A DNA stretch of 55,690 nucleotides from NCBI RefSeq assembly GCF_000520555.1, contig NZ_KI914846.1, forward strand, positions 14,268-69,957, in the 5' to 3' direction. This document shows, piece by piece, positions 9,397-52,358 of the stretch (positions within the stretch are counted from its first letter, which is position 1; each line of letters opens with the position of its first letter). Source of the stretch: Arthrobacter sp. Br18. GTDB taxonomy: Bacteria; Actinomycetota; Actinomycetes; Actinomycetales; Micrococcaceae. Under the pieces are notes generated by a model. That model saw nothing but the letters and a program-made list of their open reading frames with translations. It was not told where the DNA came from and did no database searches. The position numbers and the translations under genes are program-made.

Positions 9397-10353
9397 ATGT
9401 TTTTCCATGTCCAGCAATTGATCAATGAGATCGTTCCGGATGAGCCCGATCCCGCGGCGGCGAACGCCCTGCAGGAGGGATTGGGCGGCCAGTTCGGCGA
9501 GATGCGCACGATGATGCAATACCTGTTCCAGAGCATGAATTTCCGTGGCGCGGCGGCAAAGCCGTACCGGGATCTGCTGCAGGGCATCGGCACGGAGGAG
9601 ATCAGCCATGTCGAGCTGATCGGTACCACCATCGCAAGGCTCCTTGACGGCTCGCCCCGCTACCAGGGCAAACCCGAAGACCCATTGGACACTCCCGGAG
9701 CCGGGGGCTCCATTCCGCTGAACCTCGCCCTCTCGGAGGGCAATATCCACCACTACCTGGTCGGCGCGCAGGGAGCCATGCCGGTGGACGCCGCCGGAAA
9801 CCCCTGGAGCGGAAGCTACGTCTACAACTCGGGCAACCTGCCCCTGGACCTGCTGTACAACCTGATGCTCGAGGCTACAGGCCGGCTGCAGAAATGCCGC
9901 ATCTACGAAATGACGGACAACAAGACAGCGCGGTCCACCGTCGCCTACCTCATCGTTCGCGACCAGGCACACGAGAACGGTTACGCCAAAGCACTCGAAA
10001 CACTCGGGGTGAACTGGAAGGCACTCCTTCCCATTCCCAAGACCAGTGCTGAAAAATTCCCTGAGGTGAAGAAGCTCCTCGACCTGGGCCTTCACAGCAA
10101 GCAGTACACCTTCGACCTGGGGAACCAGTCCGAAGCCGGAAAAATCTACCAGGGCCTTTCCCCTTCCAGGGACGGTTCCAATCTGAACCTCAGCGAGCAA
10201 GCTCCCGAAGGCGTGCCGTCGGTCATCGCGCCGGAACGCTACGAGGAATTTGCTCCCGGGCTGGACCCCGAGCTCCTCGAGCTCATCCAGGCCACGTCCG
10301 ACATGGAGATGGCGGATATCGACAACATGTTCGGTCCCGTCGGCAAGAGCTGA
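9397..10353 (+). CDS. Manganese (non-haem) catalase
   Basis: 318 residues, start fixed by a strong GAGGAGG eight bases before ATG. The dimanganese ligands expected for the family are present: Glu35, Glu68 and His71 (ExxH in GTEEISHVEL), Glu159 (LMLEATG) and His192 (RDQAHENGY). The long C-terminal tail is typical of the dodecameric spore-coat/stress type. It dismutates H2O2 in the cytosol without haem. Since the haem catalase gene at 50042 is frameshifted, this may be the main catalase from this window, if that lesion is real. Confidence 0.95.
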   Translation: MFFHVQQLINEIVPDEPDPAAANALQEGLGGQFGEMRTMMQYLFQSMNFRGAAAKPYRDLLQGIGTEEISHVELIGTTIARLLDGSPRYQGKPEDPLDTPGAGGSIPLNLALSEGNIHHYLVGAQGAMPVDAAGNPWSGSYVYNSGNLPLDLLYNLMLEATGRLQKCRIYEMTDNKTARSTVAYLIVRDQAHENGYAKALETLGVNWKALLPIPKTSAEKFPEVKKLLDLGLHSKQYTFDLGNQSEAGKIYQGLSPSRDGSNLNLSEQAPEGVPSVIAPERYEEFAPGLDPELLELIQATSDMEMADIDNMFGPVGKS

Positions 10354-42417: not shown

Positions 42418-42960
42418 ATGGCTGAAAAAAAGATCGCACTGAGCGGCACTGGCGAGACAGTACGCCGAAACGTGAAGCGCCTTCGAGGCGGAATGCAGTA
42501 CAAAGAGCTGGCAGAGCGGCTGGCTTACCTAGGGCGTCCCATTCCGACGCTCGGGCTGCGCCGTATTGAGGCGGGAGAACGGCGAGTAGACGTTGACGAT
42601 CTCGCAGCGCTATCCATCGTGTTTGGTGTGTCTCCGCTAACGCTTCTCATGCCGGAAGACGGGAGCCGATTTACCAGCTCATTTGTAACAGGTGTCCCTG
42701 ACAGGGAAATAGCACACAATGCGCAATGGCTATGGGGAACAGGCCAAGAACCGCTGGTCGTCCACATAACACAGCCGGAAAAGCTGCAAGGCGAGGTTGC
42801 CCTATTTCAGAATCGCTCAAGGCCTCTGATTGAACCCCGCGAGCAAGGCGACCTTGGAGACAGGCAATTAGACACCAACGGACGCGGGCTACTACGCGCT
42901 TTCGGCTTCGGTGACGTTGACGATAAGCAAGGTCTGGTATACGACGATGGCGACGATTGA
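42418..42960 (+). CDS. XRE-family repressor-like protein (satellite Stl-like role)
   Basis: 180 residues. Residues about 12-75 form an XRE helix-turn-helix (GGMQYKELAERLAYLG, TLGLRRIEAGERRVD, ALSIVFGVSPLTLL); the C-terminal part is acidic and may be an interaction domain. ATG 42418 is chosen because the upstream extension has no HTH character. By position it is the candidate repressor of excision and replication, perhaps derepressed by a helper phage as Stl is in staphylococcal islands. It overlaps the integrase start by 14 bases. Confidence 0.78.
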   Translation: MAEKKIALSGTGETVRRNVKRLRGGMQYKELAERLAYLGRPIPTLGLRRIEAGERRVDVDDLAALSIVFGVSPLTLLMPEDGSRFTSSFVTGVPDREIAHNAQWLWGTGQEPLVVHITQPEKLQGEVALFQNRSRPLIEPREQGDLGDRQLDTNGRGLLRAFGFGDVDDKQGLVYDDGDD

Positions 42961-44086
42961 GTCTTACGAGACCAGCGCAGGAAAGCGTTACCGGGTCCGA
43001 TATCGGACGCCTGAGCGGAAACAAACGGACAAACGCGGTTTCAGAACCAAACGGGACGCCGAGAACTTCGCCGCAACCGTGGAAGTGTCCAAACTCAAAG
43101 GCGAGTACATCGACGTATCCGCAGCACGGGCAACCATCGGTCAACTTGGGCCGGAATGGCTGGCACGGCAAACGCACCTGAAACCCTCGTCATACCGCCC
43201 AGTAGAGGCCGCGTGGCGGAATCATGTTGAACCTGTCTGGAGTGCTAAAGCTGTGTCCGACATACGGAAGACCGCCGTGCAGCAGTGGCTTTCCCACATG
43301 ACTACGGGTGACGGCGCAACAGTGAAAGCGAAGTCCGCAACGGTGGTTATCCGGGCGTATGGCGTGCTGGCGTCCATCCTGGATGGTGCCGTTGATGACC
43401 GGCGCATTCTGTCCAATCCGGCGCGGGGTGTGGACCTGCCCAGGAAGGGCCGGAAAGCACACATCTACCTTTCCCATGACCAAGTGCATGATCTGGCGGC
43501 AGAAGCGAAGCATGGAACGTTGGTCTTAGTGCTGGCCTATTGCGGTCTGCGCTGGGGTGAAGCTGTAGGCCTCAGAGTGAAGCATCTCGACATGTTGAAA
43601 CGGCGCTTTCGGGTAGAAGAAAACGCGGTCGAGGTTGGCGGCAAGATCGAAGTAGGCACACCCAAAAATCATAAGAAGCGCTCCGTGCCGTTCCCTAGGT
43701 TCCTTACAGAACCGCTTGCCGTCCAATGCGAGGGCAAAGGGCGGGAGGATCTGGTGTTTCCCGGTGAGGACGGCGGCTATATGCGTTCCACGCGGGTGCA
43801 AGAGAACCGGGGTGGTTGGTTTACGGGTGCGGTAAAGCGTTCCGGGGTTCCCAGGATCACTCCTCATGATCTACGGCATACCGCGGCGAGCTTCGCAGTT
43901 TCCGCCGGCGCCAACGTCAAAGCGGTCCAACGGATGCTCGGTCACAGCTCAGCGGCAATGACTCTGGACATCTATGCGGACCTGTTCGATGAGGACTTGA
44001 ACGCCGTTGCAGATGCGCTAGATCACGCTGTTTCAGCGGCAAGTGTGGGCAAATTGTGGGCACGGAGCTTATCCGAGCAAAACTAG
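42947..44086 (+). CDS. int: Tyrosine recombinase (integrase)
   Basis: 379 residues from ATG 42947. The catalytic set is visible: Arg202 (CGLRWGEAVG), a Lys near 240 in TPKNHKKRS, His307-Arg310 (PHDLRHTAAS), His333 (MLGHSS) and Tyr343 (LDIYADLF). The N-terminal part has the arm-binding pattern (SYETSAGKRYRVRYRTPER) and an SAM-like core domain. It lies next to attR and should insert the element into the 3' end of tRNA-Tyr. Its last codons also encode the right arm-type repeat. Confidence 0.95.
   Translation: MATIESYETSAGKRYRVRYRTPERKQTDKRGFRTKRDAENFAATVEVSKLKGEYIDVSAARATIGQLGPEWLARQTHLKPSSYRPVEAAWRNHVEPVWSAKAVSDIRKTAVQQWLSHMTTGDGATVKAKSATVVIRAYGVLASILDGAVDDRRILSNPARGVDLPRKGRKAHIYLSHDQVHDLAAEAKHGTLVLVLAYCGLRWGEAVGLRVKHLDMLKRRFRVEENAVEVGGKIEVGTPKNHKKRSVPFPRFLTEPLAVQCEGKGREDLVFPGEDGGYMRSTRVQENRGGWFTGAVKRSGVPRITPHDLRHTAASFAVSAGANVKAVQRMLGHSSAAMTLDIYADLFDEDLNAVADALDHAVSAASVGKLWARSLSEQN
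44038..44062. repeat. Right arm-type repeat inside int
   Basis: 24 of 25 bases match 34779-34803, including both TGTGGGCA motifs 11 bp apart. It lies 73 bp inside attR and within the integrase 3' end (residues VGKLWA). Confidence 0.75.
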
Positions 44087-44087
44087 A

Positions 44088-44124
44088 GGCCCCTACTTCC
44101 CAGTGTTTGCGGGAAGTAAGGGCC
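44088..44124. terminator. Terminator between int and tRNA-Tyr
   Basis: A 14-bp stem with one mismatch (44088-44101 with 44111-44124), nine-base loop, right after the int stop. It can end int and, on the minus strand, replace the tRNA terminator displaced to 34610. Confidence 0.8.
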
Positions 44125-44134
44125 TTAGTTGCCT

Positions 44135-44155
44135 GTGGCAGATGAGGGATTCGAA
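44135..44155. repeat. attR, 21-bp core repeat
   Basis: The right copy of the 21-base att core, covering the tRNA-Tyr T-arm and acceptor 3' half. The element carries these bases and so leaves the tRNA functional. Confidence 0.92.
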
Positions 44156-44217
44156 CCCCCGTAGGCGTTGCCAGCTGATTTACAGTCAGCCCCCTTTGGC
44201 CGCTCGGGTAATCTGCC
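44136..44217 (-). tRNA. tRNA-Tyr (anticodon GUA), integration target
   Basis: An 82-nt class II tRNA on the minus strand: acceptor GGCAGAT/ATCTGCC, anticodon GTA in loop CTGTAAA, a long variable arm and a normal T-arm GTTCGAATC. CCA is not encoded. Its 3' half is duplicated at attL, showing this is the insertion site. Confidence 0.95.
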
Positions 44218-44342: not shown

Positions 44343-44438
44343 GTGCTGCGCACTCGATGCCAGGACGGCACGTCGGTGCTGCGCACTCGATGCCAGGACG
44401 GCACGTCGGTGCTGCGCACTCGATGCCAGGACGGCACG
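44343..44438. repeat. 33-bp tandem repeat, ~2.9 copies
   Basis: Copies start at 44343, 44376 and 44409 and begin GTGCTGCGCACTCGATGCC; the third is truncated. It separates tRNA-Tyr from yajQ, just upstream of the yajQ ribosome site. There are no spacers. In one frame it would encode 11-residue repeats with no start. Confidence 0.9.
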
Positions 44439-44495
44439 CGCAGGTGCAACCCAGTAGGCTGGAGCGAGGAATTGAACCAACTTCAAGGAGGCACC

Positions 44496-49523: not shown

Positions 49524-49539
49524 GTGGTTGACTCGGGCC

Positions 49540-50052
49540 ATGACCACGGGAACGCACCGCTCCGATGCCCTCGAGGCTCAGTGGTCACGCGCGCTGCACT
49601 CCCTGGGGCGGCGCGTCACCCGGCAGAGGCTGGCAGTCCTCGCCGCCGTCGAGCATTCCCCGCATTCCACCGCCGACGATGCTGCAGCCGCGGTGCGCGC
49701 TGAGCTGCCGCACATCACCGTGCAGTCCGTCTATGTGGTCCTCGCGGACCTGACCGACGCGGGACTGCTGCGCCGCATCGAGACGCCGCACTCCCCCGCG
49801 CGCTATGAGACGCGGGTCGGGGACAACCACCACCACGCGGTGTGCACAGGGTGCGGGCGCATCGAGGACGTCGACTGCGCCGTGGGCCACGCCCCGTGCC
49901 TCACCCCCTCCTGGGCCCCGGGGTCAGGGCGCATGACCATCCAGATCGCGGAAGTGATGTACCAGGGCCTGTGCGACGACTGCCGCGACATCCCCGCACA
50001 ATCCACCGACCACTCAACAGATTCACCACAGAAGGAGCACCATGAACGCTAA
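49540..50052 (+). CDS. Fur/PerR-family regulator beside katA
   Basis: 170 residues from ATG 49540. The winged-helix DNA-binding half ([40 protein letters not shown]) leads to a metal-binding half with [10 protein letters not shown] and CDDC zinc motifs. A Fur protein coupled to a catalase is the actinobacterial FurA/CatR-like peroxide switch. It overlaps katA by 11 bases and likely represses both until oxidised. Confidence 0.9.
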
Positions 50053-51558
50053 TTTCAGCACGACGCAGTCCGGGGCGCCGGTCATCGATGACGGCCATTC
50101 CTCGGTTATGGGCCGCGACGGAGCCATTCCGCTGACCGACCACTACCTCATCGAGAAGCTGGCCCAGTTCAACCGCGAGCGCGTCCCCGAGCGTGTGGTC
50201 CACGCCAAGGGCGGCGGTGCCTTCGGTGTCTTCGAGACCACCGAGGACGTCAGTATGTTCACCAAGGCGGCCCTCTTCCAGCAGGGCGCCACCACCGAGA
50301 CGCTGCTGCGGTTCTCCTCTGTGGCCGGCGAGCAGGGCTCCCCCGACACGTGGCGCGACCCCCGCGGCTTTGCGCTGAAGTTCTACACCCCCGAGGGCAA
50401 CTACGACCTCGTGGGAAACAACACGCCCGTCTTCTTCATCCGCGACGGCATCAAGTTTCCCGACTTCATCCACTCGCAGAAGCGCCTTCCCGGCACCAAC
50501 CTGCGCGACGCCGACATGCAGTGGGATTTCTGGACGCTCAGCCCGGAGTCCGCCCACCAGGTCACCTGGCTCATGGGCGACCGCGGCCTCCCCAACTCCT
50601 GGCGCACCATGAACGGCTATGGATCCCATACCTACATGTGGATCAACGAGGCCGGTGAGAAGTTCTGGGTCAAATACCATTTCAAGTCCAACCAAGGCCA
50701 CGAAGTGCTGTCCGTCGACGAGGCCGAGGCCCTGGCCGGCTCTGACGCCGACCACCACCTGCGGGACCTTTCCGAGAACATCGCCAAAGGTAACCACCCG
50801 AGCTGGGACCTGAAGGTCCAGATCATGCCCTACCACGACGCCAAGGACTACCGCTTCAATCCCTTCGACCTCACCAAGGTCTGGCCGCAGGCCGACTACC
50901 CGCTGATCCCGGTCGGCAAGCTCACACTGAACCGCAATCCAGAGAACTACTTCTCGCAGATCGAGACCGCAATCCAGAGAACTACTTCTCGCAGATCGAG
51001 CAGGCGACGTTCGCGCCGTCGAACTTTGTTCCCGGCATCGCGGCGAGCCCCGACCGCATGCTGCAGGCCCGGATCTTCTCCTACGCCGACGCGCACCGCT
51101 ACCGGGTGGGAACCAACCATGCGCAGCTCCCGGTGAACATGCCGAAGAACGAGGTCCGCAACTACTCGAAGGACGGCTCCGGCAGGTACCACTTCAACTC
51201 CGCGGCCACCCCTGTCTACGCCCCGAACTCCGTCGGCGGTCCCGCCGCTGATCCCGCACAGTACGGTGCGCACGGCGGCTGGGAGAACGACGGCGACCTC
51301 GTCTACGCCGCGCACTCGCTGCACGCGGAGGACGACGACTTCGGCCAGGCCGGCACGCTGTACCGCGAGGTCTTCGACGACGCCGAGCGCGCGCGTTTCC
51401 TCGAGACGATCACCGGAGCGGTGGGCGGCGTCGTCAGCGGCGATATCCGTGAGCGCGCCATCGCGTACTGGACCAGCGTCGATGAGACCCTGGGTGCCAA
51501 GCTCCGCGCGAATCTCGGCACGGCATCCGCATCCGCATCCGAAGCGGCACTGTATTAG
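50042..51558 (+). pseudogene. katA: Haem catalase, frameshifted by a tandem duplication
   Basis: The reading starts normally, with His54 in [15 protein letters not shown] and Asn in [14 protein letters not shown], as in monofunctional haem catalases. At 50966 a second copy of the preceding 35 bases shifts the frame, and the frame ends early at 51136 with meaningless Arg-rich sequence. The proper continuation ([20 protein letters not shown], haem-binding [12 protein letters not shown]) resumes from 51001 in another frame and ends at 51558. Removing one copy restores a ~493-residue catalase. Either a real, reversible mutation or an assembly error. Confidence 0.93.
50931..51000. repeat. 35-bp perfect tandem duplication in katA
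   Basis: 50931-50965 and 50966-51000 are identical. Thirty-five is not a multiple of three, so the second copy frameshifts katA. Loss of one copy by slippage would repair the gene. Confidence 0.97.
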
Positions 51559-52306: not shown

Positions 52307-52358
52307 ATGGTGGTTCCCATGGCCCTCTGCTAATGGTGGTTCCCATGGCCCTCTGCTA
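52307..52358. repeat. 26-bp perfect tandem duplication at the GNAT start
   Basis: 52307-52332 and 52333-52358 are identical. The right copy duplicates the alternative start codon and leader of the GNAT gene, which may change its translation. Confidence 0.95.

Follow-up and report, generated by a model that had tools for sequence, protein, structure and literature searches.

A frame-breaking 35-base tandem repeat in the catalase gene katA of an Arthrobacter draft genome

The katA locus and its predicted product

The window, that is the whole stretch of 55,690 bases analysed here, belongs to a 3.54-Mb draft genome in 120 contigs; it is itself free of gaps and has a 100-N gap on either side. Judged by the closest named matches over 303 catalase residues (Arthrobacter sp. 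Leaf234, A. agilis and A. ruber, 93-95% identity), the source organism appears to be an Arthrobacter near these three. The following features make up the katA locus:

49528-50052, + strand: Fur-family (PerR-like) regulator gene, Pfam FUR above cut-off
50042-51136, + strand: katA as written, an ORF of 364 residues with catalase sequence in residues 1-308 and the rest out of frame
50168-50218, + strand: distal-histidine catalase motif, upstream of the lesion and still in frame
50931-50965, + strand: copy 1 of the 35-base unit
50966-51000, + strand: copy 2 of the 35-base unit, abutting copy 1 and identical to it
51001-51558, + strand: 3' part of katA, with Pfam Catalase 304-382 and Catalase-rel, its own frame being open from 50794
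51070-51096, + strand: proximal haem-ligand tyrosine motif RIFSYADAH, downstream of the lesion

The regulator gene overlaps the start of katA by 11 bases, and NCBIfam PerR models matched it below their own cut-offs. Two identical copies of 35 bases at 50931-51000 had been reported in the preliminary description, and we could confirm them as exact and abutting. The repeat comprised exactly 2.00 copies, with zero extra matching bases on its flanks; from base composition, about 1e-15 exact doubles of period 35 would be expected by chance in 55,690 bases. The site was without Ns, and the 140 bases around the repeat had no second copy elsewhere in the genome, matching only themselves. A test for DNA hairpins at the site revealed nothing strong (z = 0.47 for the sequence through copy 1 and -0.30 for that after copy 2).

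Starting from the ATG at 50042, the katA frame was kept up to E308 (50963-50965) and lost from 50966 onwards, with a stop at 51136. The proposed frame shift after residue 308 was borne out in that E308 was the last residue in frame, on which the Pfam pieces and the relatives agreed. The Pfam Catalase profile (PF00199, 383 positions) matched with positions 1-303 on the piece ending at E308 and with positions 304-382 on the piece from 51001. It was contiguous over both pieces and so gave a whole-profile match, but in two different frames as written. By patterns which we take to be those of the distal histidine and of the haem-ligand tyrosine in catalases, RIFSYADAH was missing from the ORF as written and did not share one frame with the distal-histidine motif. 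Since the haem-ligand tyrosine motif is lost, known catalase chemistry implies that the product as written should not work as a catalase. As far as can be judged from the sequence, katA as written is a broken monofunctional haem catalase gene and not a working member of the family. Programmed -1 frameshifting was considered as a rescue and rejected, as no strict slippery heptamer was present in the overlap of the two frames.

Catalase genes in relatives and in the source genome

We searched 38 genomes of the genus, the source genome included; none of the 37 others was of the same species. A Pfam Catalase match was present in all 37, full-length (1-382) in 36 and cut by a contig end in the remaining one, G027. 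For 33 of the 36 full-length loci the place agreed with that of the katA DNA match, the other three (G057-G059) lying outside the DNA search. katA is a monofunctional haem catalase gene found throughout the genus sample. The 35-base repeat was absent from all 36 congeners showing katA whole. In a codon-by-codon comparison with 19 relatives (L005-L023), no insert was found at the site in any of them: all 19 went without an additional base from the E308 equivalent to the next block, in line with the earlier claim that a single copy gives an intact catalase frame. In G027 (C59, L174) the contig ends at 5372, one base short of the equivalent of the end of copy 1, probably by chance.

The ratio of nonsynonymous to synonymous codon differences was 0.23 before the site and 0.22 after it, which suggests that katA was working until recently. 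As the two copies do not differ and conservation is as strong in the 3' part as in the 5' part, the lesion should be either young or unreal. Among the genomes seen, the duplication appears confined to the source genome and would be recent, if it is not unreal. A broken katA is indeed unexpected, given that the gene is intact in every congener showing a whole copy, and this counts against a real knock-out.

Besides katA, three catalase genes were found in the source genome (G000), one for a haem catalase and two for Mn-catalases:

G000:C59:8119-9288: second haem catalase
G000:C110:97018-97764: Mn-catalase match
G000:C1:23664-24539, which is 9397-10272 of the window, + strand: Mn-catalase match

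Nothing in the source genome matched the KatG-type peroxidase family. A second, lower-scoring haem catalase occurred in 23 of the 37 relatives (matches above 500 bits); the match in G009 covered profile positions 1-369, and the one in G022 (G022:C1:566033-567190) contained one internal TAG. Given the three further genes, a cell without KatA would probably not be catalase-negative, and in a catalase assay on colonies the remaining enzymes would probably hide the loss. The suggestion that the repeat governs peroxide sensitivity is weakened by the same three genes. For the A. agilis group, six glacier strains that had been tested, all of them other than the source strain, are described as catalase-positive (PMC13387620).

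Doubled contig ends and the possibility of an assembly error

At a distance of 1.3 kb from the katA repeat, the window contains another exact duplication:

52307-52358: 26-base unit, 2.00 copies, located at the 5' end of a small minus-strand gene of acetyltransferase type, or upstream of that end

G016, the nearest relative, has the unit once only, and the hairpin test at the duplicated site gave z = -1.66, with 12 of 200 shuffles equally stable. The pair brings up the main rival to a real duplication, which is a serious one: contig overlaps of 35 and 26 bases may have been joined unmerged and so written twice, katA being really intact. In a variant of this, the 1.3-kb piece would perhaps have been placed between two larger contigs. 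Such short pieces are common, as 4 of 17 pieces between gaps were below 2 kb. In this scaffolded draft most gaps are runs of 100 Ns, and the window occupies exactly the space between two such gaps. Both doubles resemble doubled overlaps minus the Ns. Three doubles of at least 20 bases with zero extra matching bases were present in 0.99 Mb, and the location of two of them within 1.4 kb has p ~0.008 if they are scattered randomly, a value computed after the pair had been noticed.

The draft does contain doubled contig ends. Our sample of it comprised 0.99 Mb of called bases in 52 stretches, the window included, nine all-N contigs having been dropped. Exact suffix-prefix overlaps of at least 12 bases were present at 9 of 44 gaps (13, 16, 17, 17, 20, 21, 36, 51 and 58 bases), as against 1 of 1892 mispaired flanks; any shared stretch of at least 12 bases was found between the 100-base flanks of 14 of the 44. 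The 0.38 Mb sampled from G016 had 47 gaps, 14 of them with end overlaps of 14-45 bases. For G009, which is another assembly, doubled ends were seen at none of 14 N gaps. Four doubled joins were looked up in relatives, two with usable matches and two with no useful match; by arithmetic on the printed coordinates, both stretches with usable matches were single there. The 51-base one was single in three of the four genomes matching both flanks (G003, G009 and G024), the fourth, G016, having a 100-N gap of its own with a doubled 24-base overlap, so that the one-copy fit failed. The 20-base one was single in both genomes concerned (G016 and G020). The gap overlaps in the source draft and in G016, two of them single in relatives, argue that assemblies of this kind write contig-end overlaps twice. 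Doubled ends around 100-N gaps can be seen, among others, at L127:19665, L128:2111 and L186:16975 in the source genome and in L221 in G016. False duplications are to be expected where genes break beside such gaps, and since contig ends are written twice at part of the gaps in this draft, frameshifts at exact repeats need a check against the reads before annotation. Separately, L109 (G000:C3), a contig of 3.1 kb, carries an exact double of 226 bases at 1201-1652.

Like these unmerged overlaps of 13-58 bases, the katA site has an exactly doubled stretch, of which relatives have one copy, as they do for the two overlaps that could be checked. It differs from them in two respects, since the joins have a run of Ns between the copies and richer G+C around them, and katA has neither. 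G+C was 0.55 over 100 bases at both N-less duplications (for katA, 100 bases spanning the junction of the two copies), whereas none of 91 joins (44 of the source genome and 47 of G016) was that low, the lowest flank mean being 0.59. Within the source genome, 550 of 19,621 stretches of 100 bases had a G+C as low as this. Nor was there an excess of short doubles without Ns. Counting exact N-less doubles 12-19 bases long and allowing up to 2 extra matching bases, we obtained 9 in 0.99 Mb of the source genome, 5 in 0.38 Mb of G016 and 7 in the 0.70 Mb sampled from five single-contig congeners, and 8 of the 23 doubled join overlaps fell in that length range. At 20 bases and above, under the same limit on extra bases, the counts were 4, 0 and 1, respectively; the zero in G016 was obtained despite more gaps per base. 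Compared with a 1.08-Mb control, made up of G016 and the five single-contig congeners, the source genome had 10 exact duplications of period at least 20 against 5 (p 0.20), and 4 against 1 when at most 2 extra bases were allowed (p 0.20). Outside this control, none was found in 0.10 Mb of G009 and one in 0.53 Mb from 80 catalase-neighbourhood loci.

The earlier mention of an assembly error as an option thus retains substance in the doubled contig-end overlaps at the gaps of the draft, but loses weight at the katA site itself, with its low G+C and lack of Ns. The low G+C, together with the missing excess of N-less duplications of 12-19 bases, is why we hold a real duplication to be more likely than a join error. 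That the copies arose by unmerged joining appears to us possible but rather doubtful. We favour instead, as the fairly probable explanation, that a recent, spontaneous and ordinary tandem duplication inactivated katA.

Origin and reversibility of the duplication

According to the explanation by a recent knock-out, 35 bases inside katA would have been doubled spontaneously and without microhomology. A ribosome would read copy 1 in frame, pass into copy 2 in a shifted frame and stop after residue 364. Frame and tyrosine motif being lost, no working KatA would be made. The cell would tolerate this, katA being dispensable where the genome also encodes three further catalases, one of the haem and two of the Mn type, which are presumably active. 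If the duplication is real, one catalase has been lost in a genome with backups. Exact tandem duplications in general can be lost precisely by slippage, and rare revertants are therefore to be expected here too: replication slippage between the copies could delete one of them precisely. This revertibility would be a property of the mutation, and we see no evidence in it for an evolved switch.

The preliminary description had gone further and proposed phase variation. Its statement that the lesion could be reversible stands insofar as loss of a copy is possible, as it is for any exact tandem duplication; this does not make the site special, and the relatives examined, with one copy each, give no sign of a switch. 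An evolved switch would have one copy for KatA on and two copies for KatA off, flipping within the population. In 2001 and 2003, Waite et al. reportedly described how sequence within capsule genes of pneumococci (type 3 locus, cap8E and tts) is duplicated spontaneously. Two reports characterize such capsule gene duplications as spontaneous and reversible (PMC4243769, PMC4022640). As described there, a tandem duplication within an ORF disables the gene, as in katA; reversal was reported for the capsule genes, however, whereas the katA duplication is known from one draft sequence, and gene, organism and selective setting differ. With an exact, abutting tandem duplication that breaks an ORF, katA has the right geometry for a switch of this duplication type. 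Simple-sequence-repeat contingency loci, on the other hand, have many short units maintained at the locus. There, too, the frame is set by the repeat copy number, but in katA a 35-base unit occurs just twice, and in a single genome, and no repeat was found at the locus in related strains, these being congeners only. Among the matches listed in the literature search, no title concerned a katA duplication.

The stop of the katA contig in the 68%-complete G027, one base before the equivalent of the end of copy 1, could have come from a mixed population, but for a single contig end in so fragmentary a genome chance is a ready explanation. Against a switch we further count the missing repeat in the 36 congeners with whole katA, the zero extra matching bases, which leave nothing pre-existing to favour a renewed duplication, and the other catalases, which would blunt the phenotype. 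We consider an evolved switch very improbable. A frame-breaking exact repeat in one draft does not amount to a switch.

As to how an ordinary duplication could arise, the katA site showed no sign of microhomology. Contig C73 of the source genome carries matches both to Ku and to a LigD domain, which makes fill-in followed by blunt end-joining possible. It may be conjectured, as a long shot, that the 35- and 26-base duplications both stem from one episode of staggered-break repair by Ku/LigD fill-in and blunt ligation. Only if this were true would the case have general significance, since break repair in such bacteria would then create revertible gene-off alleles.

Another repeat and a putative element were noted elsewhere in the window. 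At 44343-44441, between tRNA-Tyr (44135-44217) and a DUF520 gene, a 33-base unit is present three times, the third copy at 91%; three aligned relatives (L167, L168 and L170) match on both sides of it and not across. At 42911-44217, a phage-type integrase gene ends beside tRNA-Tyr, and none of the fetched relatives aligned strongly between about 34000 and 44079. An integrated element is possibly present here.
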